From positions 3,472,001 to 3,536,000 of the forward strand of contig NZ_CP021978.1 in assembly GCF_004803895.1 (NCBI RefSeq): 64,000 nucleotides of DNA, read 5' to 3'. The notes beneath the pieces were generated by a model. The model was not told where the DNA came from and made no database searches. It saw only the letters and a program-made list of their open reading frames with translations. This DNA comes from Streptomyces hawaiiensis. Its GTDB lineage: Bacteria > Actinomycetota > Actinomycetes > Streptomycetales > Streptomycetaceae. A program made the position numbers and the translations under genes. Positions 3,048 to 47,934 of this stretch are shown one piece after another. Every line of letters starts with the position of its first letter. The first letter of the stretch is position 1.

Positions 3048-3882
3048 AGGGTCCGATGTCCCGGGACGTTTCCCCCTCGCCCGGCCGGACGTCCGCGTCC
3101 GTCACGCCTTCCGTACCCTTCACACCCTCCGCACCGGCCGGCACCGGAGCCTGCCCCACCCGGTGCCGTGGTACCGACCGCATCGGTGGTCTGGTCAGGG
3201 TGATCTGGCGGACGACCTGCTGGAAGCAGGCGAGGGCGGCGAGGCCGGGCAGGGCCGCCGCCGCGGTGCCGAGGATCGTGCGGGGCGCCTGGACGACGCA
3301 CAGCAGCACGGCGATACAGGAGAAGACCAGGACCACGCACCAGGAGTGCACGGCCCGGCGCTGGTGCAGCGCGGCCCGCAGGACGGACAGGGAGCCCACC
3401 AGCCAGGGCCCGTAGACCAGCAGGGGCCACCAGGTGCGCAGGCCTCTCGCCGCGGGGGACACGGCGACCAGGCGCAGGGGGTCGTAGGCGACCATGCCGC
3501 TCAGGAGGCTCACCCCGGAGGCGATGACGGCCGCCAGGGCGGCAACGAGGAAGCTGGTGGTGCGGAGCATGCCCGGGGCCTTGCGGGCCCGGACTTTGCG
3601 GTGACGCCGGGGGACCTCACGGACGGGCGGCAGTTCCTCGGTGATGTCCTGGAGCCGCCGCATGTGGGTGCCCGGGACAGAGGCGGGGGCCGGATCCGGG
3701 GCCGGGGCCGGGTCCTCGTCCCGGGGGGCGGGGACCCTCGCCGCCTGCTCCCCGAGGGCTTCCTCCAGGATGAACGCCAGTTCCTCGGCCGGGTCCCAGG
3801 TCGGGTCCGGTGGCGTCAGCGGGGTGATGAAATCCCGGGCCGGAGCCCGATGCCGGCCGGTGCCCTCTACTTTGTCGTACAT
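3046..3882 (-). CDS. Four-helix membrane protein, DUF2637-like
   Basis: A 278-aa protein with a charged cytoplasmic N-terminus (about 105 residues, rich in Pro, Asp, Glu and Arg), four closely spaced hydrophobic segments (about residues 108-225) and a charged tail. The helix block, with SLLSGMVAYDPLR after the first helix and WWPLLVYGPWLV in the second, resembles DUF2637, a streptomycete membrane family also found on conjugative plasmids as Spd-like spread proteins. That assignment is from memory of the pattern. The stop falls inside the 15-bp repeat, so the last residues may vary between strains. It lies 12 bp after the 81-aa gene at 3895-4140, probably in one transcript. Confidence 0.7.
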   Translation of the reverse strand: MYDKVEGTGRHRAPARDFITPLTPPDPTWDPAEELAFILEEALGEQAARVPAPRDEDPAPAPDPAPASVPGTHMRRLQDITEELPPVREVPRRHRKVRARKAPGMLRTTSFLVAALAAVIASGVSLLSGMVAYDPLRLVAVSPAARGLRTWWPLLVYGPWLVGSLSVLRAALHQRRAVHSWCVVLVFSCIAVLLCVVQAPRTILGTAAAALPGLAALACFQQVVRQITLTRPPMRSVPRHRVGQAPVPAGAEGVKGTEGVTDADVRPGEGETSRDIGP

Positions 3883-3894
3883 GGCGCGGCCCGA

Positions 3895-4140
3895 CTATTC
3901 CGCAAGCGCGAAAGCGGGCCAATCCGTCGCACTGATCCACCGTCGGGCGAGATCCTTTTCCAGCGCGCTCATGGCGTCGATGAAGTCGCGCAGAACCGGC
4001 TCGGTCACCTGCAGCGTGACCGGGCAACCGGCTTTTGTGAGCGTTCCGTTGACTGTCGCCGACGAGTGCGCTGGAGCCGGAATGTAGGTGTAGGGGCCGA
4101 GCGTTACCGCCCAGCCGTTTTTCCTCGTCGCCTCGGTCAT
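3895..4140 (-). CDS. Small orphan protein (81 aa)
   Basis: The 81-residue protein begins MTEATRKNGWAV at the ATG at 4138-4140. The frame is open further upstream, but that part is AT-richer, of different composition and without streptomycete codon bias, so I exclude it. The protein is soluble, with no signal or membrane helix; a mixed N-terminal half (TLGPYTYIPAPAHSSATV) looks like beta strands and the C-terminal half (VLRDFIDAMSALEKDLARRW) is a likely amphipathic helix. I do not recognise the family. It is followed at 12 bp by the DUF2637-like gene, a probable operon partner, and sits divergently from the MFS exporter. Confidence 0.65.
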   Translation of the reverse strand: MTEATRKNGWAVTLGPYTYIPAPAHSSATVNGTLTKAGCPVTLQVTEPVLRDFIDAMSALEKDLARRWISATDWPAFALAE

Positions 4141-4390
4141 GTACCGACTAACCGTCGGCCCACTTCGGCGGATGCGCGGCAAACGAGTGAAGGATTTTCC
4201 CGAATGAACATCTTTTCCATGCGTCATGAGGAGCATTAGGAATCTCCATATCTCTGTATGAAGAACAGGGAGCGAATGTTTTCCGCCATGCCCTTCCGGC
4301 CTGCCCCGCCACGGATTCACAACCCAGGTGCGTGACTGCGCGCGGAACAGGTGTTGGACCTCTTGATCGTCCCCGGGGGACGGTGGACGC

Positions 4391-5599
4391 ATGCCGCAAC
4401 TCTCCCCGTACCGCCGCCTGTTCCGCCTGCCGGGCGCCCGCGCGTTCACCGCCGGGAACCTCATCGCCCGGCTGCCGATGGGCATGTTCAGCGTCAGCGC
4501 GGTCGTGATGATCGCCGGGACCCGGGGCTCCTACGCCCTCGCCGGTGCCGTCACGGCGACGGGACTCGCGGCGACCGCCCTGGTCGCGCCGTGGACCGCC
4601 CGGCTGGTGGACCGGCACGGCCAGGCCCGGGTCGCCCTGCCCGCCACGGTGATCGCCGTCCTCGGCTCCCTCTCCCTGCTGCTGTGCGTGCGCCACGACG
4701 CCCCGGACTGGACCCTGTTCGCCTCCTACGCCGCCACCGCGACCACCCCCAACACCGGCGGCATGTCCCGGGCCCGCTGGGCATATCTGCTGGCCGGCGA
4801 CCCGGAGGCGCTGCACACGGCCAACTCCTTCGAGCAGGCGGCGGACGAACTGTGCTTCATGCTGGGCCCGGTGCTCGCGGCCTTCCTGTGCGGGGCGTTC
4901 TTCCCCGAGGCGGGCACCCTCGTGGGCGCGGTGCTGCTGCTGGCCGGCATGGTCCTGTTCACCACCCGGCGTGCGACGGAGCCCCCGGTCCGCGCGCACA
5001 TACCCGGCAAGGCGCCCCTGCGCGCCCCCGGCATCCCCCCGCTGCTCGCGGTCTGCCTGGCGATGGGCGGCATCTTCGGCGCGACGGAGGTCGTCACGCT
5101 GGCGTTCGCCGACGCCCAGGGGCGCCAGTCGGCGGCCGGTGTCGTGCTCGCGCTCCAGGCCGCGGGCTCCTGCGGGGCGGGCCTGCTGTACGGCGCCGCG
5201 AAACCCGCCGGCCCGGCCGCGGCCCGGCTGCCCTGGTGCGTGGCGGCGATGGCCGCGCTGCTGGCGCTGCCGCTGCTGGCCGCGGCCCTCACAGGTTCGC
5301 TCCTCGTCCTGGCGGCCGCGCTGCTGGTCGCCGGGATGGCGACGGCCCCGACGATGGTCACCACCATGACGCTGGTCCAGCAGCGCACCCCCGAGGGCCG
5401 GCTGAACGAGGGCATGACCCTCGCGGTGACCGGCCTGCTCGGCGGCATCGCCTGCGGCAGCGCGCTCGGCGGATGGACGGTGGAGCACCTCTCTCCGACG
5501 GCGGGTTACGGCGTCCCAGTGGCGGCGGCGGCCGTGGCCCTGGCGTTGTCCCTGCGCAGCGGTTCGAATCGCTTCACCAAGTGCCTCGCACCCCATTGA
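4391..5599 (+). CDS. MFS transporter
   Basis: A 402-aa integral membrane protein with about twelve hydrophobic segments and the MFS loop motif after helix 2 (RLVDRHGQARVALPATV, a variant of G-x-x-x-D-R-x-G-R/K). The length and the N- and C-terminal six-helix halves fit the drug/metabolite exporter class. Substrate is unknown. The ATG at 4391 follows a G-rich ribosome site (GGGGGACGG). The gene is divergent from the small orphan gene, and its upstream 250 bp are markedly AT-richer than the surroundings, as expected for a promoter. It ends about 75 bp before the alpha-xylosidase gene, whose operator lies in the gap, so it is probably a separate unit. Confidence 0.9.
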   Translation: MPQLSPYRRLFRLPGARAFTAGNLIARLPMGMFSVSAVVMIAGTRGSYALAGAVTATGLAATALVAPWTARLVDRHGQARVALPATVIAVLGSLSLLLCVRHDAPDWTLFASYAATATTPNTGGMSRARWAYLLAGDPEALHTANSFEQAADELCFMLGPVLAAFLCGAFFPEAGTLVGAVLLLAGMVLFTTRRATEPPVRAHIPGKAPLRAPGIPPLLAVCLAMGGIFGATEVVTLAFADAQGRQSAAGVVLALQAAGSCGAGLLYGAAKPAGPAAARLPWCVAAMAALLALPLLAAALTGSLLVLAAALLVAGMATAPTMVTTMTLVQQRTPEGRLNEGMTLAVTGLLGGIACGSALGGWTVEHLSPTAGYGVPVAAAAVALALSLRSGSNRFTKCLAPH

Positions 5600-5628
5600 C
5601 GCCCTCGCGCACCCCGCATACGTTCGAT

Positions 5629-5646
5629 CGTCGAAGCGCTTCGACG
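5629..5646. promoter_or_regulatory. LacI-type operator, perfect 18-bp palindrome
   Basis: CGTCGAAGCGCTTCGACG is an exact inverted repeat with the central CG flanked as in LacI/GalR operators (half-site TCGAAGC). It ends 29 bp before the alpha-xylosidase ATG, and the second gene of this pair encodes a LacI-family repressor, so autoregulation of the pair is the natural reading. Binding is inferred, not shown. Confidence 0.8.
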
Positions 5647-5675
5647 TCATGCGCCGGGAGAGTAGGGACCCCCAC

Positions 5676-7925
5676 ATGAAGTTCACCGACGGCTACTGGC
5701 TCCTGCGCGAGGGCGTCACCGCGGCCCACCCGGCCCAGGTCCTCGACGTCACCGAGTCCGACGGCGCCCTGGAGATCCACGCGCCGACCCGGACCGTCCG
5801 CTCCCGCGGCGACCTGATGACCGGCCCGGTCTTCACGGTCAGGGCGCACACCCCCATGCCGGACGTGATCGGCCTGACCCTGACCCACTTCACCGGCGGG
5901 GAGCCCCGCGGCCCCGAGTTCGAACTCACCACCTCGGACACCACCGCACAGATCTCGTACGACGACGAGCACGCGACCCTGACCTCCGGCGACCTGTCGG
6001 TCCGGCTGACCCGCGGCGGCCCCTGGCACGTCGAGTTCCTCGCGCACGGCCGCAGGCTCACCAGCAGCGGCCACAAGAACGCGGGCATCATGCGGGACGC
6101 CTCCGGCGCGCACCACCTGCGCGAACAGCTGGTCCTGACGGTCGGCACGTCCGTCTACGGCCTCGGTGAGCGCTTCGGCCCGCTGGTGAAGAACGGCCAG
6201 GTCGTCGACATCTGGCAGGCCGACGGCGGCACATGCAGCGAACAGGCCTACAAGAACGTGCCGTTCTACCTCACGGACGCGGGCTACGGCGTCTTCGTCG
6301 ACCACCCGGGCCAGGTGTCCTTCGAGGTCGCCTCGGAAGTCGTCTCCCGGGTGCAGTTCAGCGCGGAGACCCAGGAGCTGACGTACTACGTCATCCACGG
6401 CCCCACCCCGAAGGAGATCCTGCGCAAGTACACGGCCCTGACCGGACGCCCGGCCCTGCCGCCCGCCTGGTCGTTCGGCCTGTGGCTGTCGACGTCCTTC
6501 ACGACCTCGTACGACGAGGAGACGGTGACGTCCTTCATCGACGGCATGAAGGAGCGTGAACTGCCGCTGTCCGTCTTCCACTTCGACTGCTTCTGGATGC
6601 GGGAGTTCAACTGGTGCGATTTCCGGTGGGATCCACGGGTGTTTCCCGACCCCGAGGGCATGCTGGCCCGGCTGAAGGCCCGTGACCTGCGCGTCTCCGT
6701 GTGGATCAATCCGTACATCGCCCAGCGCTCCCCGCTGTTCGCCGAGGGCAAGGCGCTCGGGCATCTGCTGAGGCGACCGGACGGCGGCGTCTGGCAGTGG
6801 GACATGTGGCAGCCCGGCATGGCCCTGGTCGACTTCACGTCACCGGCCGCCCGCGACTGGTACGCCGCCAAGCTGGAGGCACTGCTCGCGCAGGGCGTCG
6901 ACTGCTTCAAGACCGACTTCGGCGAACGGGTACCCCTCGACGTGGTCTGGTCCGACGGCTCGGACCCGGAGCGGATGCACAATTACTACACGTACCTGTA
7001 CAACCGCACGGTCTTCGAGGTGCTCCGCAAGCACCGCGGCGAGCAGGAGGCCGTCCTCTTCGCACGGTCGGCGACGACGGGGAGCCAGCAGTTCCCCGTG
7101 CACTGGGGCGGCGACTGCGAGGCGACGTACGAGTCGATGGCGGAGTCGCTGCGCGGCGGACTGTCCCTCGGCCTGTCGGGCTTCGGGTTCTGGAGCCACG
7201 ACATCGGCGGCTTCGAAGGCACCCCCACCCCGGCCCTGTTCAAGCGCTGGCTGGCCTTCGGCCTGCTCTCCTCCCACAGCCGCCTGCACGGCAGCAGCTC
7301 CTACCGCGTCCCCTGGCAGTTCGACGAGGAGTCGGTCGACGTGGCCCGCCACTTCACCCGGCTGAAGCTCCGGCTCATGCCCTACCTGTACGAGACGGCC
7401 CGCACGGCCCACACCGAGGGCCTGCCCGTGATGCGGGCCATGGTGCTGGAGTTCCCCGACGACCCGGGGTGCGCGCACCTGGAACGGCAGTACATGCTCG
7501 GCCCGGACCTGCTGGTCGCGCCGGTGTTCAGCGACGAGGGCGACGTCACGTACTACGTCCCCGAGGGCACGTGGACGCACTTCGTCAGCGGCGAGACGGT
7601 GACCGGCCCGCGCTGGGTGCGCGAGCGCCACGGCTTCCTGAGCGCGCCGCTGCTGGTCCGGCCCGGCGCGGTGATCCCGGTCGGCGCGCGGGACGACCGC
7701 CCGGACTACGACCACGCCGACGGGGTGAAGCTGCGGGCGTACGGCCTGCGACCCGGCGACGAGGTGACGGTGCCGGTCGGGGACGTGACCTTCACGGTCG
7801 TCCGCTCGGGGAACACCCTGCGGGCGACGTGCGGCGCCCCGGAAGCCGCCTGGAGCCTGGCCGCGGGCGAACGCGAGGTCCAGGCGCCGCCCGGCACGGG
7901 CCTGCTCACGCTGGAGCTCGGCTGA
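5676..7925 (+). CDS. yicI: Alpha-xylosidase, GH31 (YicI-type)
   Basis: A 749-aa cytosolic glycoside hydrolase family 31 enzyme of the YicI branch, which releases alpha-xylose from isoprimeverose-type xylosides. The N-terminal beta-sandwich spans about residues 1-250, the catalytic barrel about 250-590, and beta domains follow. The nucleophile motif FKTDFGE has its Asp at about residue 414; the acid/base Asp lies in WGGDCEATYESM at about residue 480; LSLGLSGFGFWSHDIGGF completes the active site. No signal peptide is present, so the substrate must be imported. The ATG at 5676 begins MKFTDGYW, the usual YicI start. The stop overlaps the LacI start by one base (TGATG), implying translational coupling. 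Confidence 0.95.
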   Translation: MKFTDGYWLLREGVTAAHPAQVLDVTESDGALEIHAPTRTVRSRGDLMTGPVFTVRAHTPMPDVIGLTLTHFTGGEPRGPEFELTTSDTTAQISYDDEHATLTSGDLSVRLTRGGPWHVEFLAHGRRLTSSGHKNAGIMRDASGAHHLREQLVLTVGTSVYGLGERFGPLVKNGQVVDIWQADGGTCSEQAYKNVPFYLTDAGYGVFVDHPGQVSFEVASEVVSRVQFSAETQELTYYVIHGPTPKEILRKYTALTGRPALPPAWSFGLWLSTSFTTSYDEETVTSFIDGMKERELPLSVFHFDCFWMREFNWCDFRWDPRVFPDPEGMLARLKARDLRVSVWINPYIAQRSPLFAEGKALGHLLRRPDGGVWQWDMWQPGMALVDFTSPAARDWYAAKLEALLAQGVDCFKTDFGERVPLDVVWSDGSDPERMHNYYTYLYNRTVFEVLRKHRGEQEAVLFARSATTGSQQFPVHWGGDCEATYESMAESLRGGLSLGLSGFGFWSHDIGGFEGTPTPALFKRWLAFGLLSSHSRLHGSSSYRVPWQFDEESVDVARHFTRLKLRLMPYLYETARTAHTEGLPVMRAMVLEFPDDPGCAHLERQYMLGPDLLVAPVFSDEGDVTYYVPEGTWTHFVSGETVTGPRWVRERHGFLSAPLLVRPGAVIPVGARDDRPDYDHADGVKLRAYGLRPGDEVTVPVGDVTFTVVRSGNTLRATCGAPEAAWSLAAGEREVQAPPGTGLLTLELG

Positions 7926-31622: not shown

Positions 31623-33863
31623 GTGCCCCGCTTCAGCATCATCGTCCCCGTCTACAAGGTGCAGGGCTTCCTGCGCGCGTGTCTCGACTCGGTGCTCGGC
31701 CAGTCCTACGGCGACTTCGAGGTGATCGCCGTGGACGACCGCTCGCCCGACGGCAGCGGCGCGATCCTCGACGAGTACGCCGCCCGCGACGCCCGGGTGC
31801 GGGTGCTGCACCTGCCCGAGAACGTCGGCCTGGGCCGGGCCCGCAACGCCGGCCTGGCGCAGGCGGCCGGCGACTACGTCCTGTTCCTGGACAGCGACGA
31901 CCACTACACGCCGGGTCTGCTGGCCGCCGTCGCCGCACGCCTGGCGGCGACCGACGACCCGGACATCCTCGTCTTCGACCATGTGCGCACCCACTGGTGG
32001 GGCCGGGGCGGGCGCAGCGAGGCGGCGGACCTGCTGGCCGCGGCGGGCCTGGAGACGTTCGGCATCCGGCAGAGCCCGCAGTATCTGAACCTGTTCCTGG
32101 TCGCCTGGAACAAGGCCTACCGGCGCTCCTTCCTCCAGGAGCACGGGCTGGAGTACGCGCCGGGGCTGTACGAGGACGCGCCGGTCACCTACCGGTCGAT
32201 GGTGCTGGCCGACCGGATCGCCTGCCTGGACCGGATCGGCGTGGAGTACCGCCAGCGCCGCCAGGGCGCGATCACCAAGACGCCCGGGCGCCGGCACTTC
32301 GACATCTTCCCGCAGTACGAGGGCCTGTTCGCGTTCCTGGAGCAGCGCCCCGACCTGGACTGGGCGCGGCCGCTGCTGCTGGAGCGGGCTCTGGACCACA
32401 TGCTGTTCGTGCTGGCCCGCGAGGACCGGGTGCGGCCCGCGGACCGGGGCGACTTCTACCGCGAGATCCGCTCCTTCCACCGCCGTCACCTCCCCGAGGG
32501 CGGCTTCCCGCAGCCGGACGGCTGGCGCGGGGTCGAGATGCGGCTGCTCGCCTCGGCGCCCTACGCGTCGTACGCCGCGGCACGCGGGCTGCGGGATCTG
32601 CGCGCGGCGGCCCTGGGCGGGCAGCGGCGGGTGGTGCGCAAGGCGTCGGAGACGGCGGTGCGCGGCTGGTACGCGGCCCAGTCGAAGCGCCCCCTCGATC
32701 CGCACCTCGCCGTCTACTCGGCGACCCACCACCGGGGCGTGGCCGGTGACCCGGCGGCGATCCACGAGAAGGCGCGCGAGATCGCCCCGCACATCCGGGG
32801 CGTGTGGGTGGTCCGGGAGGACGCCGTGGACGCGCTGCCGCGCGGCATCGACCATGTGACACCGGGCTCGCGGCGCTACCACGAGGTCATGGCCCGGGCC
32901 ACGTACTGGGTGAACAACGTCAACTGGCCCGGCACCCTGGCCAAGCGCCCCGGCAGCGTCCACATCCACACCCACCAGGGCACCCCGCTCAAGTACATGG
33001 GCGCCGATCTGCTGACCAAGCCGGGCGCCCGGCACGGCTTCGACGTGCCGCAGATGCTGCGCCGGGCCGACCGCTGGGACTACAGCCTGGTCGCGGGGCG
33101 GCACGCGGAGCGGGCCTGGGAGCGGGCGTACCCGTGCCACTTCACCTCGCTGCGGACCGGCAGCCCGCGCAACGACGTGCTGGTCGGGGCCGGCCCGGAG
33201 CGGGGCCGGGAGGTGCGCGAGCGGCTCGGCGTCCCGGCCGGTGACACGGTGGTGCTGTACGCGCCGACCCGCCGCGACTACCGGCGGGGCGGCCATGTCG
33301 ACCGGTTCGACCTGACCCGGTTCGCCGAGGACCTGGGCCCCGGGCACACGCTGGTCGTCCGTCTGCACCCGTCGCTGGCGGGGGGCGTCGCGCGGGGCCT
33401 CGGCCTGGCCGACCTGCACCGGCGCGGCGTGCTGGTGGACGCGACCGACGAGCCGCACGTCGAGGACGTGATGCTCGCCTCCGACGTGCTGGTCACCGAC
33501 TACTCCGCCCTGATGTTCGACTACGCCCTCCTGGACCGGCCGATCGTGGTCCACGCCGACGACTGGGGCGCGTTCGCGGCCAGCCGGGGCGCCTACTTCG
33601 ACATCACGGCCGACGCGCCGGGTCATGTGTCGCGCTCGTACCGGGAGCTGGCCTGGCTGTTCGCTTCCGGTACCTGGCAGGACGCGGAGGCGGCACGGCT
33701 GCGCTCCGGCTTCCGGGAGCGGTACTGCGAGTTCGAGGACGGGCGGGCCGCCGAGCGGGTCGTCCGTCTGCTGATGCTGGGCGAGCGGGGCGGGGCGCTG
33801 CTGCCCGCGGCCCGCCGGACCGTGGGTTCCCGCACACGTCCCGAGGCGCTGATCGAGAGATGA
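31623..33863 (+). CDS. Bifunctional GT2 / TagF-type protein 3, altered TagF His
   Basis: A 746-aa paralogue. The GT2 domain looks fully active: VDDRSPDGSG and FLDSDD (about 88). The TagF domain has YAPTRRDY, VVRLHPSLAG and TDYSALMFDYALLDRP (about 625), but the motif that reads HGTPLK in the paralogues is HQGTPLK, so Gln452 replaces the catalytic-type His; a His sits one position earlier at 451. The start is the GTG at 31623 (MPRFSIIV), 9 bp after the previous stop. Its stop overlaps the next gene by ATGA. The TagF reaction may be lost or changed, while GT2 activity is kept. Confidence 0.9.
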   Translation: MPRFSIIVPVYKVQGFLRACLDSVLGQSYGDFEVIAVDDRSPDGSGAILDEYAARDARVRVLHLPENVGLGRARNAGLAQAAGDYVLFLDSDDHYTPGLLAAVAARLAATDDPDILVFDHVRTHWWGRGGRSEAADLLAAAGLETFGIRQSPQYLNLFLVAWNKAYRRSFLQEHGLEYAPGLYEDAPVTYRSMVLADRIACLDRIGVEYRQRRQGAITKTPGRRHFDIFPQYEGLFAFLEQRPDLDWARPLLLERALDHMLFVLAREDRVRPADRGDFYREIRSFHRRHLPEGGFPQPDGWRGVEMRLLASAPYASYAAARGLRDLRAAALGGQRRVVRKASETAVRGWYAAQSKRPLDPHLAVYSATHHRGVAGDPAAIHEKAREIAPHIRGVWVVREDAVDALPRGIDHVTPGSRRYHEVMARATYWVNNVNWPGTLAKRPGSVHIHTHQGTPLKYMGADLLTKPGARHGFDVPQMLRRADRWDYSLVAGRHAERAWERAYPCHFTSLRTGSPRNDVLVGAGPERGREVRERLGVPAGDTVVLYAPTRRDYRRGGHVDRFDLTRFAEDLGPGHTLVVRLHPSLAGGVARGLGLADLHRRGVLVDATDEPHVEDVMLASDVLVTDYSALMFDYALLDRPIVVHADDWGAFAASRGAYFDITADAPGHVSRSYRELAWLFASGTWQDAEAARLRSGFRERYCEFEDGRAAERVVRLLMLGERGGALLPAARRTVGSRTRPEALIER

Positions 33864-35695
33864 GAACTCCCGCGACGCCCGAGGCCGTCCCCTCCCTGCC
33901 CGGCCAGCGGGCCTCCTCGGCCCGGCTGCCCGCCGCCGAGCGGCTGCGGTGGGTGCCCGGGTGGCATGCGGCCCTGGTCGCCGTGCCCACCGCGGCCCTG
34001 TTCGTGCTGGGCTACCGGCGTCGCTGGATCTGCGACGACGGGCTCATCTACCTGCGCCCGGTCCGGCAGATCCTGGCGGGCAACGGGCCGGTGTTCAACG
34101 TCGGGGAGCGGGCCGAGAGTTCGACCGGCACCCTGTGGCAGTGGCTGCTCGCCCTCACCACCTGGGTCACCGGCGAGGACCCGGCGTTTCTCGCGGTCGG
34201 GCTCGGCCTGGCCTTGAGCACCGCCGGGTTCGCGTTCGCCCTGCTCGCCACGTGCCGGCTGCACCGGGGCGCGGGACTGCTGGTCCCGGCGGGTGTGTTC
34301 GTGCTGCTGGCGGTGCCGCCGTTCTGGTCGTACATGACCTCGGGTCTGGAGAGCGGTCTCGGCGCCTTCTGGACCGGCCTGTCGTGGTGGCTGCTGACGC
34401 GGACCCGACGTGCTCAGGAGGCCCGGGAGACGTACGCGGCCGCCTTCGTGTTCGGGCTGGGTCCGCTGGTCCGGCCCGATCTGGCGGTGGTCACGGCGTG
34501 CTTCCTGGCCGCGCAGTGGTGGGTGCTGCGTCCCTCGCGGCGGGGCACGGCGGCGATGCTGGCCTCGGCGGGAGCGGTGCCGCTGGCGTACGAGGTCTTC
34601 CGGGCGGGGTACTACGGGATCCTGGTGCCGCTGCCCGCCATCGCGAAGGAGGCGAGCGCCAGCGACTGGGGCCGGGGCGCCGGGTACGTGCAGGAGACGC
34701 TCGGGCCGTACTGGCTGTGGCCGGTCGTCCCGGTGCTCGGGGCGCTGGCGGCCCTGCTCGTTCGGCGCACCCGCCGGGAGCAGCGGGACCGCGCCCCGGG
34801 GCGGGCCTCGCTCGCGGTGCTGCTGGCGCCGTTCGCGGCGGGTCTGCTGCTCGCCGGGTACGTCGTCCGTGTCGGCGGCGACTACATGCACGCCCGCATG
34901 ATCCTGCCCGCCCTTCTCCTGCTGCTCCTGCCGGTGCTGGTCGTGCCCGCCACCAGGTTCACGGGTGTCGCGAGCGCGCTGCTGGTGGTGTGGCTGTGCG
35001 CGGCGGTCAGTCCGCTGCGGGCGCCGTTCGACGTGCGCAGCACCCCCGGGTCGTTCAACGTGCGCAGTTCCGACGTGGAAGGCCTCGGCGACCACAACCC
35101 GGTGCGCACCGCCACCTGGGTGGACAACTGGCCCGCCCTGCCGGAGGGGCGCGCCATGCTGGCCCGGGCCGAGCGCGCGCCCGGGCCGACGCTGCTCTAC
35201 TTCGACGCCGAGCGGCGGCTGCACGCGACGCCGATGCGTGCGGACTCCCCGTACCAGGTGGTGATCGTGGGACGGCATCTCGGAGTGACGGGCGCCGCGG
35301 CGCCGCTGGACGCCTATGTCAACGACGCCTGGGGGCTGGCCAGTCCGATCGGCGCGCATCTGGCGCTGGAGCGGTGGAGCTGGCCCGGGCACGAGAAGTT
35401 CCTGCGCAACTACTGGGTCTTCGCTCAGTGGGCGGTGGAGCACCCGCCGCAGCGCGACCTGCTGCGGGCCGGGGCACCGAGGGAGGCGGTCGAGGCGGCC
35501 CGGGCCGCGCTCGGGTGCGGCGAACTCGCCGAGCTCAGGGAGTCCGTGCGCGCGCCGCTCACCGCCGAGCGATTCTGGCGGAACCTCACCGGGGCGGCCG
35601 AGCGGACCCGGTTCCGCTTCGCGCGCTGGCCGGCGGCGGCGCAGCAGGCGCTGTGCGACCGACCGGCAGGTGGGCGTAGCGGCCTCACCCGATGA
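33860..35695 (+). CDS. AftB-like GT-C membrane glycosyltransferase
   Basis: A 611-aa integral membrane protein with about ten helices in residues 30-400 and an extracytoplasmic C-terminal domain. The segment after helix 1 (ICDDGLIYLRPVRQILAGNG) followed by VFNVGERAESSTGTLW closely resembles the AftB/GT-C arabinofuranosyltransferase pattern of mycobacteria, in which an Asp pair after helix 1 is catalytic and a decaprenyl-phosphate sugar is the donor. Streptomycetes lack arabinogalactan of the mycobacterial kind, so the product is more likely a side group on the glycopolymer made by this locus. The ATGA overlap with the third TagF gene ties it to that operon. Family is inferred from motifs. Confidence 0.75.
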   Translation: MRTPATPEAVPSLPGQRASSARLPAAERLRWVPGWHAALVAVPTAALFVLGYRRRWICDDGLIYLRPVRQILAGNGPVFNVGERAESSTGTLWQWLLALTTWVTGEDPAFLAVGLGLALSTAGFAFALLATCRLHRGAGLLVPAGVFVLLAVPPFWSYMTSGLESGLGAFWTGLSWWLLTRTRRAQEARETYAAAFVFGLGPLVRPDLAVVTACFLAAQWWVLRPSRRGTAAMLASAGAVPLAYEVFRAGYYGILVPLPAIAKEASASDWGRGAGYVQETLGPYWLWPVVPVLGALAALLVRRTRREQRDRAPGRASLAVLLAPFAAGLLLAGYVVRVGGDYMHARMILPALLLLLLPVLVVPATRFTGVASALLVVWLCAAVSPLRAPFDVRSTPGSFNVRSSDVEGLGDHNPVRTATWVDNWPALPEGRAMLARAERAPGPTLLYFDAERRLHATPMRADSPYQVVIVGRHLGVTGAAAPLDAYVNDAWGLASPIGAHLALERWSWPGHEKFLRNYWVFAQWAVEHPPQRDLLRAGAPREAVEAARAALGCGELAELRESVRAPLTAERFWRNLTGAAERTRFRFARWPAAAQQALCDRPAGGRSGLTR

Positions 35696-45659: not shown

Positions 45660-45738
45660 GGCGCACTCGGTCGGCCCTTTTGTCTCTTTGATGGCAGCAT
45701 GACCGCATACGGTGCAGCTGCGAGAGGGGGTCCCCGGG

Positions 45739-47934
45739 ATGGCCGAGCTCAGTGTCATCGTCCACGGGCCGAACGTTCAGGACCATCTGACGGAGCTGCT
45801 GGCCTCCCTCGCCGCCCACCCCCTGCCGGACGCCGAGGTGATCGTGGCCGCGGTCGGCGACTGGGCCCGGGAGACCGCCGAGCGGCACGCCCCGGAGGTC
45901 CAGGTCGTGCCGCTGCCGGACGGCACGGGCGACGCGGCGGCCCGGGCGGCGGGCGCGGCCCGGGCGTCCGGCCGCTGGCTGCACTTCGTCCACGCCAAGG
46001 ACGGCCTGCCCGCCGGCGCCCCGCGCACAGTCGCCGAGCGGGTCGCCGAACTCTCCGGCGAGGTCGACGTCCTCCTGCTCGACCACGTCCGCAGCACCTG
46101 GCACACCTTCGGCATGCCCTCCCCGGACGGCCCGCTGCTCGCCCGGGCGGGCCGCGCCGACGTCGTCCTCGACGACTGCGCGCCCCTGCTGCGGCTGACC
46201 CCGCTGCTCGGCACCCGCGTCCTGCGCGCGGACTTCTGGCGGGCGCACGAACAGCGGCTCACCACCGACGACGAGCCGTACGCCGCCCTGGCCGCCCTGC
46301 TGCTCGCCGACCGCGTCGCCTGCCTGCCGCACGTCGCCTACGAGGACCGCCGACTGCGCCCCGCCAGCCTGCCCCCGGTCACGCCCGAGCAGCGCTACCG
46401 CCTCGTCGAGCGCTACGAGTCCCTCCTCGACCTCACCCGCGACCGGCGCGCCGCACACACCGTGCTCTACGACCTCATGGTCCGCGACTGCCTGCGCACC
46501 TTCGCGCGCGGCGGCATGCCTGAGGACGTCGCGCGGGAGTTCTTCCGCAGGGCGTCCCTGGCCGCCCTGCGCCGCCGCCCCGAGAACCACCGCCGCCCGG
46601 CCGGACTCGAAGGCGTCCGCCGCTCCCTGCTCGAGGAGGGCGCCTACGCGAAGTACCGTGCCTTCCAGGCCGCCAACCGCACCCGCCGCACCGCCAAGTC
46701 GGTCGTACGGGCCCGTAGGCGCCAGGCCGGTGCCAGGCTCCGCGACCACCAGTACCGCAGGGCGCTCGGCCGCCCCGTCAACCCGCACCTCGCGGTGTTC
46801 TCGGCGTACTGGAACCGTGGCGTCGCCTGCAACCCCGCCGCGATCGCCGCCAAGCTCGCCGAACTCGCCCCGCAGATCCACCCGGTGTGGGTGGTCACCG
46901 AGGAGAACGCGGCCCTCCTGCCGCCCGGCACCGACCATGTCGTGCCCGGCAGCCGCCGCTACTGGGAGGTGCTGGCGGCCGCCAAGTACCTGGTCAACAA
47001 CGTCAACTTCCCGAACGCGGTGGTCAAACGCCCGGACGCCATCCACGTCCAGACCCACCACGGCACGCCCCTGAAGCGCATGGGCATCGACCAGATGGCG
47101 TTCCCGGCCGCCGCACAGGGCCTGGACTTCCGGGCGCTGCTGGAGCGCATCGACAAGTGGGACTTCAGCGTGTCGGCCAACAGCCACACCACCCGCATGT
47201 GGGAGCGCGCGTACCCGTCGCGCTACGTCTCCCTGGACCACGGCTATCCGCGCAACGACGTCTACTACACGGCCGGCGCCGACGACATCCGCACGGTCCG
47301 CGCCCGTCTCGGCATCGCCCCCGGCCGCCGGGCCGTCCTCTACGCGCCCACCCACCGCGACTACGAGGCCGGCTGGACCCCGCGCCTGGACCTCGCCGCC
47401 CTCGCCGACCGCCTGGGCGAGGACACGGTCCTGCTCGTGCGCGGCCACTACTTCTACGGCGGCGCGGCCTCCCCGCTCACCAATCTGCGCCGCACGGGCC
47501 GGATCATCGACGTCTCCTCCTACGACCCGGTCGAGGAGCTGTGCCTGGCGGCGGACGCCCTGGTCACGGACTACTCCTCGATCATGTTCGACTACGCCAA
47601 CCTCGACCGGCCGATCGTGATCTACGCCGACGACTGGGAGACGTACCGCACGACCCGGGGCGTCTACTTCGACCTGATGGCGGAGGCCCCGGGGCCGGTG
47701 GCCCGCACCCAGCAGGAGCTGACGGAGATCCTCACCACCGAGGCCTGGCGCGACGAGAGCGCGGCGAAGACCCGGGCCGTCTTCCGGCGCCGGTTCTGCG
47801 AGTACGACGACGGTCGCGCCGCCGAACGCGTCGTCCGCCGGGTCTTCCTGGGCCAGGACGAACGGGACCTGCCGCCCGTGCTGCCGGTCGAGGAACGCAC
47901 CCCGGCCCCGACCCCGCAGGAGGCGACCGCATGA
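45739..47934 (+). CDS. TagF-type glycerophosphotransferase with degenerate GT2 domain
   Basis: A 731-aa TagF-like protein. Its C-terminal TagF domain is complete: HHGTPLK (His about 441), YAPTHRDY, LVRGHYFY and TDYSSIMFDYANLDRP (about 610). The N-terminal GT2-like domain keeps length and position but lacks both signatures: the VDDxSxD stretch is missing and the DxD metal site is replaced by HFVHAKDG (about 82). It is likely a non-catalytic fold that holds the acceptor. The ATG at 45739 follows a G-rich ribosome site (GAGAGGGGG). It lies 79 bp after the exporter ATPase; the next GT2 gene overlaps its stop by ATGA. Confidence 0.88.
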   Translation: MAELSVIVHGPNVQDHLTELLASLAAHPLPDAEVIVAAVGDWARETAERHAPEVQVVPLPDGTGDAAARAAGAARASGRWLHFVHAKDGLPAGAPRTVAERVAELSGEVDVLLLDHVRSTWHTFGMPSPDGPLLARAGRADVVLDDCAPLLRLTPLLGTRVLRADFWRAHEQRLTTDDEPYAALAALLLADRVACLPHVAYEDRRLRPASLPPVTPEQRYRLVERYESLLDLTRDRRAAHTVLYDLMVRDCLRTFARGGMPEDVAREFFRRASLAALRRRPENHRRPAGLEGVRRSLLEEGAYAKYRAFQAANRTRRTAKSVVRARRRQAGARLRDHQYRRALGRPVNPHLAVFSAYWNRGVACNPAAIAAKLAELAPQIHPVWVVTEENAALLPPGTDHVVPGSRRYWEVLAAAKYLVNNVNFPNAVVKRPDAIHVQTHHGTPLKRMGIDQMAFPAAAQGLDFRALLERIDKWDFSVSANSHTTRMWERAYPSRYVSLDHGYPRNDVYYTAGADDIRTVRARLGIAPGRRAVLYAPTHRDYEAGWTPRLDLAALADRLGEDTVLLVRGHYFYGGAASPLTNLRRTGRIIDVSSYDPVEELCLAADALVTDYSSIMFDYANLDRPIVIYADDWETYRTTRGVYFDLMAEAPGPVARTQQELTEILTTEAWRDESAAKTRAVFRRRFCEYDDGRAAERVVRRVFLGQDERDLPPVLPVEERTPAPTPQEATA

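Follow-up and report, generated by a model that had tools for sequence, protein, structure and literature searches.

What becomes of a TagF-type domain when the histidine thought to act as its general base is gone from a gene that selection still maintains? The question is raised by a block of three tandem genes of Streptomyces hawaiiensis, which lies in the 64,000-nucleotide stretch of DNA analysed here (the window, on whose forward strand all features are numbered) and belongs to a genome searched as a single contig of 8.88 Mb. Pfam profiles identify four window proteins in which a GT2 domain is followed by a PF04464 (TagF) domain, all encoded on the + strand: P0003 (26968..29241), P0002 (29416..31614) and P0001 (31623..33863), which stand in tandem as the first, middle and third genes of the block, and P0004 (45712..47934), a fourth paralogue that lies apart. 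A search of the organism's own genome returned these four and one weak fifth match. P0001, a protein of 746 amino acids with a GTG start, carries its GT2 domain at 31635..32144 (+ strand; PF00535, residues 5-174, 129.5 bits) and its TagF domain at 32670..33776 (+ strand; PF04464, residues 350-718), the latter scoring 388.4 bits against a curated cut-off of 22.1 and covering positions 3-366 of the 367 in the profile; no TPR domain, a feature of most TagF-like capsule polymerases, was among its matches in the Pfam profile search. Because only 8 bases separate P0002 from P0001 and the end of P0001 overlaps a membrane glycosyltransferase-like gene (33860..35695, + strand), the genes appear to form a single operon. 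The three enzymes of the block, which many Streptomyces have, probably build a polymer of the cell surface. A solute-binding protein and two permeases are encoded upstream of the block, and tmRNA, smpB, ftsX and prfB further off in the window, a neighbourhood that presumably corresponds to the SCO2966-SCO2997 region of S. coelicolor. The product of the overlapping membrane gene shows a remote, low-score likeness to a terminal beta-(1->2)-arabinofuranosyltransferase (279.6 bits, far under the cut-off of 1050), which hints at an unusual sugar in the polymer.

The preliminary description had reported a Gln in place of the catalytic-type His of P0001, and both codons and alignment confirm it: codons 451-452 (32973..32978, + strand) read CAC CAG, that is, His-Gln, and Gln452 (CAG at 32976-32978) occupies the column of His444 in the WHGTPLK motif of S. 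epidermidis TagF. Where P0001 has THQGTPLK, its window paralogues have TQHGTPLK (P0002), TGHGTPLG (P0003) and THHGTPLK (P0004), so that the HGTPL attributed to all three is borne out by the four-protein alignment. According to passages of one study (PMC11666461), His444 is the likely base of S. epidermidis TagF and His584 binds the donor pyrophosphate, and their equivalents in Cps3D, H479 and H609, are called crucial. The His584 equivalent is retained in P0001 as His582 (codon at 33366..33368, + strand). The further claim that all other TagF motifs are intact was wrong, as P0001 has Ser514 in place of the conserved Tyr of GYPRND, Ala629 in place of the second Ser of TDYSS, Thr368 where the family has an aromatic residue and, around His582, RLHPSL where the family has RAHYFY. 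The residues conserved between TagF and CgoT are given in the same passages, in Cps3D numbering, as F391, G480, T481, P482, R542, A573, R607, S647, S648 and D652 (PMC11666461); by a correspondence that is our reading of the motifs, P0001 keeps the GTP, R516, A547, R580, S628 and D633, and has Thr368 for the aromatic residue and Ala629 for the second Ser. The GT2 domain, also described as intact, is indeed so, with D39, D90, D92, N163, E184 and D185 all present in P0001.

Loss of the His is common to all third-gene orthologues sampled. Our set of 324 distinct proteins comprises 112 of the third-gene clade, 93 of the middle-gene clade, 91 of the first-gene clade and 28 others. Residue 452 of the 112 third-gene orthologues is Gln in 98, Arg in nine, Leu in four and Glu in one, and never His, the residue found there in 27 of the 28 others. 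The best 29 third-gene matches among 101 genomes of the same genus (L006-L034) have Gln (24), Arg (4) or Leu (1) and no His; the thirtieth, L035, at 55% identity, carries His, and twenty further third-gene loci, some of them from genomes already sampled, again have no His at this position. The 80 closest named loci are all from Streptomyces. A degenerate DNA pattern for THQGTPLK, to which the R, L and E forms are invisible, occurs in 4 of 296 genomes of the phylum, all four of one genus, and third-gene matches above 1290 bits were counted by hand in 25 of 63 genomes of the same genus and in none of 137 from other genera, diverged orthologues scoring lower. In the TagF-domain tree the third-gene domains, together with the end of one chimera, form a single clade with support of 1.0. 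Parsimony places nine changes at position 452 of third genes and none at either 451 or 582. Since no member of this clade has His and position 452 has changed nine times, the simplest history is one ancestral loss followed by drift, and, as far as these sequences tell, the loss is a lineage trait fixed in the third-gene clade. Variability at 452 is not unique, as four other core positions vary at least as much (Y651 and F659 13 times each, A635 and F701 nine times each); the median core position shows 0 changes in the clade, and 38% of all TagF positions show at least nine.

The domain as such remains constrained, about as much as that of the middle gene. H582, R516, R580, T549, N517, D626 and D633 are each present in 112 of 112 third genes and S628 in 111. 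Ratios of dN/dS were obtained for 88 distinct loci with all three genes, of which 81 were split by the GT2 type of the third gene into types A and B (37 and 44 loci); as these ratios come from pairwise counting on GC-rich genes, only contrasts between genes of the same loci are usable. They amount (type A/type B) to 0.27/0.27 for the GT2 and 0.26/0.33 for the TagF half of the third gene, 0.39/0.41 and 0.31/0.31 for those of the middle gene, and 0.29/0.33 and 0.45/0.46 for those of the first. By this measure the TagF half of the first gene and the GT2 half of the middle gene look relaxed, whereas the TagF half of the third gene does not. An apparent relaxation of the third-gene GT2 (pooled dN/dS 0.49) was an artefact of mixing GT2 types and vanished on splitting, and the dN/dS values rule out decay of the whole third protein. 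Third genes nevertheless depart from the family in their own way: they show on average 5.98 deviations over 55 other core TagF positions, and 14 TagF residues that are rare in the other groups are nearly fixed (at least 95%) in this clade, those around the site including G375, D376, W435, L581, P583 and L585.

The two GT2 types, which make up 44 and 58 of the 112 third-gene GT2 halves, sit on one and the same TagF clade. Type B GT2 is nearer to the first-gene GT2 (0.66) than to type A (0.63); in their TagF halves the two types share an identity of 0.77. The contrast between the types is exemplified by L019, L021, L024, L031 and L033 against L010, L014 and P0001. The GT2 module has probably been swapped under the same His-less TagF half, and its similarities suggest exchange between neighbouring paralogues as the source.

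The neighbours of P0001 present the reciprocal pattern. In P0002 the TagF site is intact and the GT2 domain reaches 65.6 bits, with several otherwise invariant positions altered. Middle genes have the TagF His in 93 of 93 proteins of the 324-protein set and in 96 of 97 of a larger set, the exception being a chimera; a canonical GT2 (D39, D90, D92, N163, E184, D185) is found in 112/112 third genes versus 0/97 middle genes. The replacements in middle-gene GT2 domains affect N67, N163, K164, E184 and Y209. The aspartates D90, D92 and D185 are kept in 92-93 of 93, so this GT2 may still work, and a dead GT2 in the middle gene is unsupported. P0004 has lost the DxD of its GT2 (24.2 bits) and retains an intact TagF; its orthologues have both TagF histidines in 14 of 14 cases and no DxD in the 13 that are readable, and these P0004-type proteins (45712-47934 in the window; L250-L263), with a GT2-like front lacking DxD and an intact TagF, mirror P0001. 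Outside the three clades, 26 of the 27 other GT2-TagF fusions combine a canonical GT2 with the TagF His, the remaining one being P0004. Fusions with both sites are therefore common outside the block, whereas each member inside it tends to have one clearly good half. The chimera mentioned above is the second gene of L074 (about 3437-6224, + strand), with a middle-gene front up to residue ~440, a third-gene end and neither TagF His. It looks like a deletion fusion of two neighbouring genes. Its lack of both histidines shows that complete loss in a block does occur, so that phosphotransfer by the block is not indispensable everywhere.

The first gene shows the same loss, and repeatedly. P0003 itself has a canonical GT2 (133.2 bits) and the TagF His. 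In a larger tree of 393 distinct proteins, obtained after adding 40 further regions, the first-gene clade counts 128 proteins, of which 71 have His at the TagF base position and 57 do not; in the earlier 324-protein set His was found in 41 of 91, with nine other residues among the remaining 50. Parsimony requires at least ten changes at this position, or 16 losses if regain is barred, and a TagF-only tree gives 14 His-loss clades; collapsing weak branches still left 16 losses, a figure on which we do not rely. Loss of His goes with further erosion of the domain: the mean number of core TagF deviations, of 55, is 4.84 in first genes without His vs 0.82 in those with it (the rank test ignores kinship). 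The core positions were defined from a set that included the middle-gene clade and left out the first genes, and the low deviation of the middle gene is partly built in. His-less first genes keep H582 in 70%, the Thr of YAPT (T549) in 61% and the first Ser of TDYSS (S628) in 75% of cases. Their GT2 is canonical in 52 of 57, as it is in 71 of 71 first genes with His; the latter, P0003 included, have both sites good. The His is kept in 30 of 38 first genes without a middle gene (that is, none in the stretch of the locus examined) vs 41 of 90 with one (Fisher p 0.0008, kinship ignored). Among the eight of these 38 in which it is absent, three (L203, L206, L210) sit between two TagF proteins of the WHG type. 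We do not adopt a link between loss of the His and presence of the middle gene. Several loci (L192-L196, L198, L202-L206, L208-L210, L215, L222) hold a first-gene orthologue with neither a third nor a middle gene in the stretch examined, next to opposite-strand TagF-type proteins that have the classical WHG and no recognisable GT2 front. A few first genes without the TagF His (L113, L132, L211, L212, L214) also have missing or altered GT2 motif residues and are possibly decaying.

Several features can be read directly from the sequences: Gln452 and the absence of His throughout the clade, the conserved residues of the donor site, the canonical GT2, the reciprocal pattern among paralogues and the purifying selection on both halves. 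They fit best a TagF half of P0001 that has ceased to transfer phosphate; that it lacks this activity, binds a donor and cooperates with the other proteins is what we infer from them. The domain has the marks of a pseudoenzyme: its fold is kept, its base His is lost and its dN/dS is 0.26-0.33. As residue 452 is never His and may be Gln, Arg, Leu or Glu, one conserved catalytic job at that position is hard to uphold. We therefore favour, with a probability of about 0.58, a division of labour in which a bifunctional ancestor would have been duplicated in tandem and its copies would have come to share the work, the TagF half of P0001 holding the donor without transferring it and P0002 performing phosphotransfer. 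The ancestor would have had two working halves, a GT2 glycosyltransferase and a TagF phosphotransferase. P0001 would have kept its GT2 site, through which it would add its sugar, and permanently lost its TagF general base, and its TagF half probably still holds a nucleotide-activated donor, a nucleotide or the growing chain. Phosphotransfer would fall to P0002 and perhaps also to P0004, each serving the same polymer in trans; P0002, with its QHG, would add a phosphate-linked unit, by analogy with the trans complementation seen in Cps1B. Passages of the literature tie the QHG motif to hexose-phosphate transferases (PMC11666461). Of the two options that the preliminary description had left for P0001, a non-catalytic scaffold or a shifted His, the loss of transfer stands, but "scaffold" probably understates the case: constraint on the donor site, and on the domain overall, is about as strong as in the middle paralogue that keeps the base. 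The P0001 TagF half is best read as a natural counterpart of H444N, the mutant form in which TagF was crystallised with donor. Against this reading stand the constraint on that half and its 14 clade-fixed residues, the fact that 452 is not alone in its variability, the Tyr found at this site in the active enzyme Cps7A, the kept GT2 aspartates of the middle gene, the eight His-less first genes that have no middle gene beside them and the chimera of L074.

A more specific version is tentative: the TagF half of P0001 might act as a trap, binding an activated phosphoalcohol or phosphosugar that it does not pass on, and might in this way sense or gate assembly, the block as a whole working as an assembly line. 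Gating could respond to donor supply, to the chain end or to hand-over to the middle enzyme, and the assembly line would have arisen by reciprocal loss of active sites among tandem bifunctional paralogues, the first copy losing its site repeatedly. A parallel is offered by the capsule enzyme of H. influenzae type b, where, in the passages of the report concerned, a nucleotide in the site accompanies closer contact between the TagF-like domain and its partner transferase (PMC10299916); by analogy, a sensing or gating role of the P0001 TagF is possible.

We consider it rather unlikely that the TagF half of P0001 still transfers phosphate, with a different base (His451, or Asp376, which is specific to the clade) or with substrate assistance, on a different donor or acceptor. 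His451 and H582 are both present in 112 of 112 orthologues, and a constraint similar to that of the middle gene, with dN/dS not relaxed and 14 clade-fixed residues, several of them round the site, would also suit an enzyme that has changed and yet remains active. Moreover, Cps7A, an active PF04464 member, has Tyr at the place of His444, according to passages of PMC11666461, so loss of the His alone is no proof of inactivity. The preliminary description had pointed to His451 as a shifted His, a special feature that we reject as stated: the same His occurs in P0004 (THHG) and in 20 of the 28 proteins that fall outside the block clades, where it adjoins the retained His452, and it need not be a replacement for the base. 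The idea that it has taken over catalysis finds no positive support. Constancy at 451 says little by itself, since this position, mostly Gln or Gly in middle and first genes, is Gln in 93 of 93 middle genes, and drift of residue 452 among Gln, Arg, Leu and Glu would disturb a catalytic residue next to it. His-to-Ala mutants of related enzymes give no polymer in the experiments described in parts of PMC5974469, and no proven active TagF-type enzyme with HQGTP was found in the passages and listings covered.

It is improbable that the TagF half of P0001 is purely structural, binding no donor and serving only to hold the GT2 half, an oligomer or a membrane surface. The lost base, the 5.98 deviations at other core positions and the presence of two GT2 types on one TagF clade, as for a common platform, agree with such a role; however, in a pure scaffold the donor site should be free to change, as is seen in first genes without His, and H582, T549 and S628 are kept in 99-100% of P0001 orthologues. 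Sequencing error, misalignment or decay of a lone gene in a single strain has practically no chance of explaining Gln452, given the same loss in 112 distinct orthologues, the open frame of P0001 and purifying selection.

That a paralogue loses a catalytic residue is in itself nothing new. Among literature titles and abstract openings, a coverage outside which subscription papers mostly lie, we recognised no inactive TagF-type or teichoic-acid pseudoenzyme. What lifts this locus above an odd substitution is that sites are lost reciprocally within a single operon, time and again in one member and for good in another that is still fully constrained. The repeated loss of His in first genes beside a paralogue that keeps it amounts to a natural replicate experiment on the splitting of a bifunctional polymerase, and the block gives a clear, testable rule for which protein performs which step. 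Wall glycopolymers are important to Streptomyces in its spores and in septation, and the enzymes behind them have been little studied; the TagF homologue SCO2997 of S. coelicolor is tied to sporulation by the title of one paper. There is also a warning for annotation: among 261 distinct GT2-TagF fusions whose GT2 is canonical, a sample biased to relatives of P0001, the base His is absent in 164 (112 third and 52 first genes), and a match to PF04464 alone should not lead to annotation as a glycerophosphotransferase.

Comparison of structures places both halves of P0001 among known enzymes. In its AlphaFold model (mean pLDDT 84.2, pTM 0.81), residues 333-720 match TagF 3L7K (Z 37.0, rmsd 3.5, 368 aligned) and residues 2-335 match TarS (Z 31.1, rmsd 4.2, 318 aligned), and the N-terminal half also matches TarP (Z 29.4, rmsd 3.0, 302 aligned) and RmlT (Z 29.1, rmsd 2.8, 313 aligned); the loop 454-472, just past the motif, has pLDDT below 50, and the geometry of residues 451-452 is not readable from the model. 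TarS, TarP and RmlT are GT2 glycosyltransferases that decorate wall teichoic acid. They share the fold of the N-terminal half of P0001 at a low identity of 16-21%, and we know of no PF04464 domain fused to any of them. The GT2 half of P0001 has the features of an inverting GT2 glycosyltransferase of the GT-A fold, with D39, the DxD aspartates D90 and D92, the ED motif (E184, D185) and a TarS-like fold. With S. epidermidis TagF (3L7I-3L7M, PF04464) P0001 has in common the fold, the second His and the GTP, PRND, YAPT and TDYS motifs; it differs by Gln for His444, by the replacement of the residues at Tyr514, Ser629 and aromatic position 368, and by the canonical GT2 in front. According to the entry titles, the TagF crystals soaked with CDP-glycerol are of H444N (3L7K, 3L7L) and TarL with CDP-ribitol is H300N (8VA1); the alignment has Asn in the column of P0001 residue 452 in 3L7J-L, and the equivalence of TarL H300 is taken from spacing only. 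These laboratory mutants have an amide in place of the base His, and P0001 has the next longer amide; unlike them, the P0001 clade is natural, with the loss fixed throughout and with Arg, Leu or Glu as further replacements.

A passage of PMC3937824 names the S. coelicolor proteins SCO2981-SCO2983 and SCO2997 together as glycosyltransferases of wall teichoic acid, and walls of this species are described, in parts of two papers, as containing poly(diglycosyl 1-phosphate) and teichulosonic acid (PMC7831098, PMC11481543). The closest architectural parallels are the capsule polymerases Cps1B (GT-A plus TagF-like) and Cps3D and Cps7D (TagF-like plus GT-B), which, like P0001, join a glycosyltransferase and a TagF-type domain in one chain; by its residue numbers Cps1B even has the domain order of P0001, GT-A and then TagF-like (passages of PMC5974469). 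The same passages report that Ala at the base His of Cps1B or Cps7D, or at either TagF His of Cps1B, stops polymer synthesis, that the glycosyltransferase half of the Cps7D His-to-Ala mutant still consumed UDP-Gal, and that mixing mutants of different halves restored polymer synthesis (PMC5974469). Measured against these polymerases, in which both domains have their catalytic residues, P0001 has the fusion and lacks the TagF base: there, both halves are active in one protein, whereas here the activities are apparently shared among tandem paralogues.
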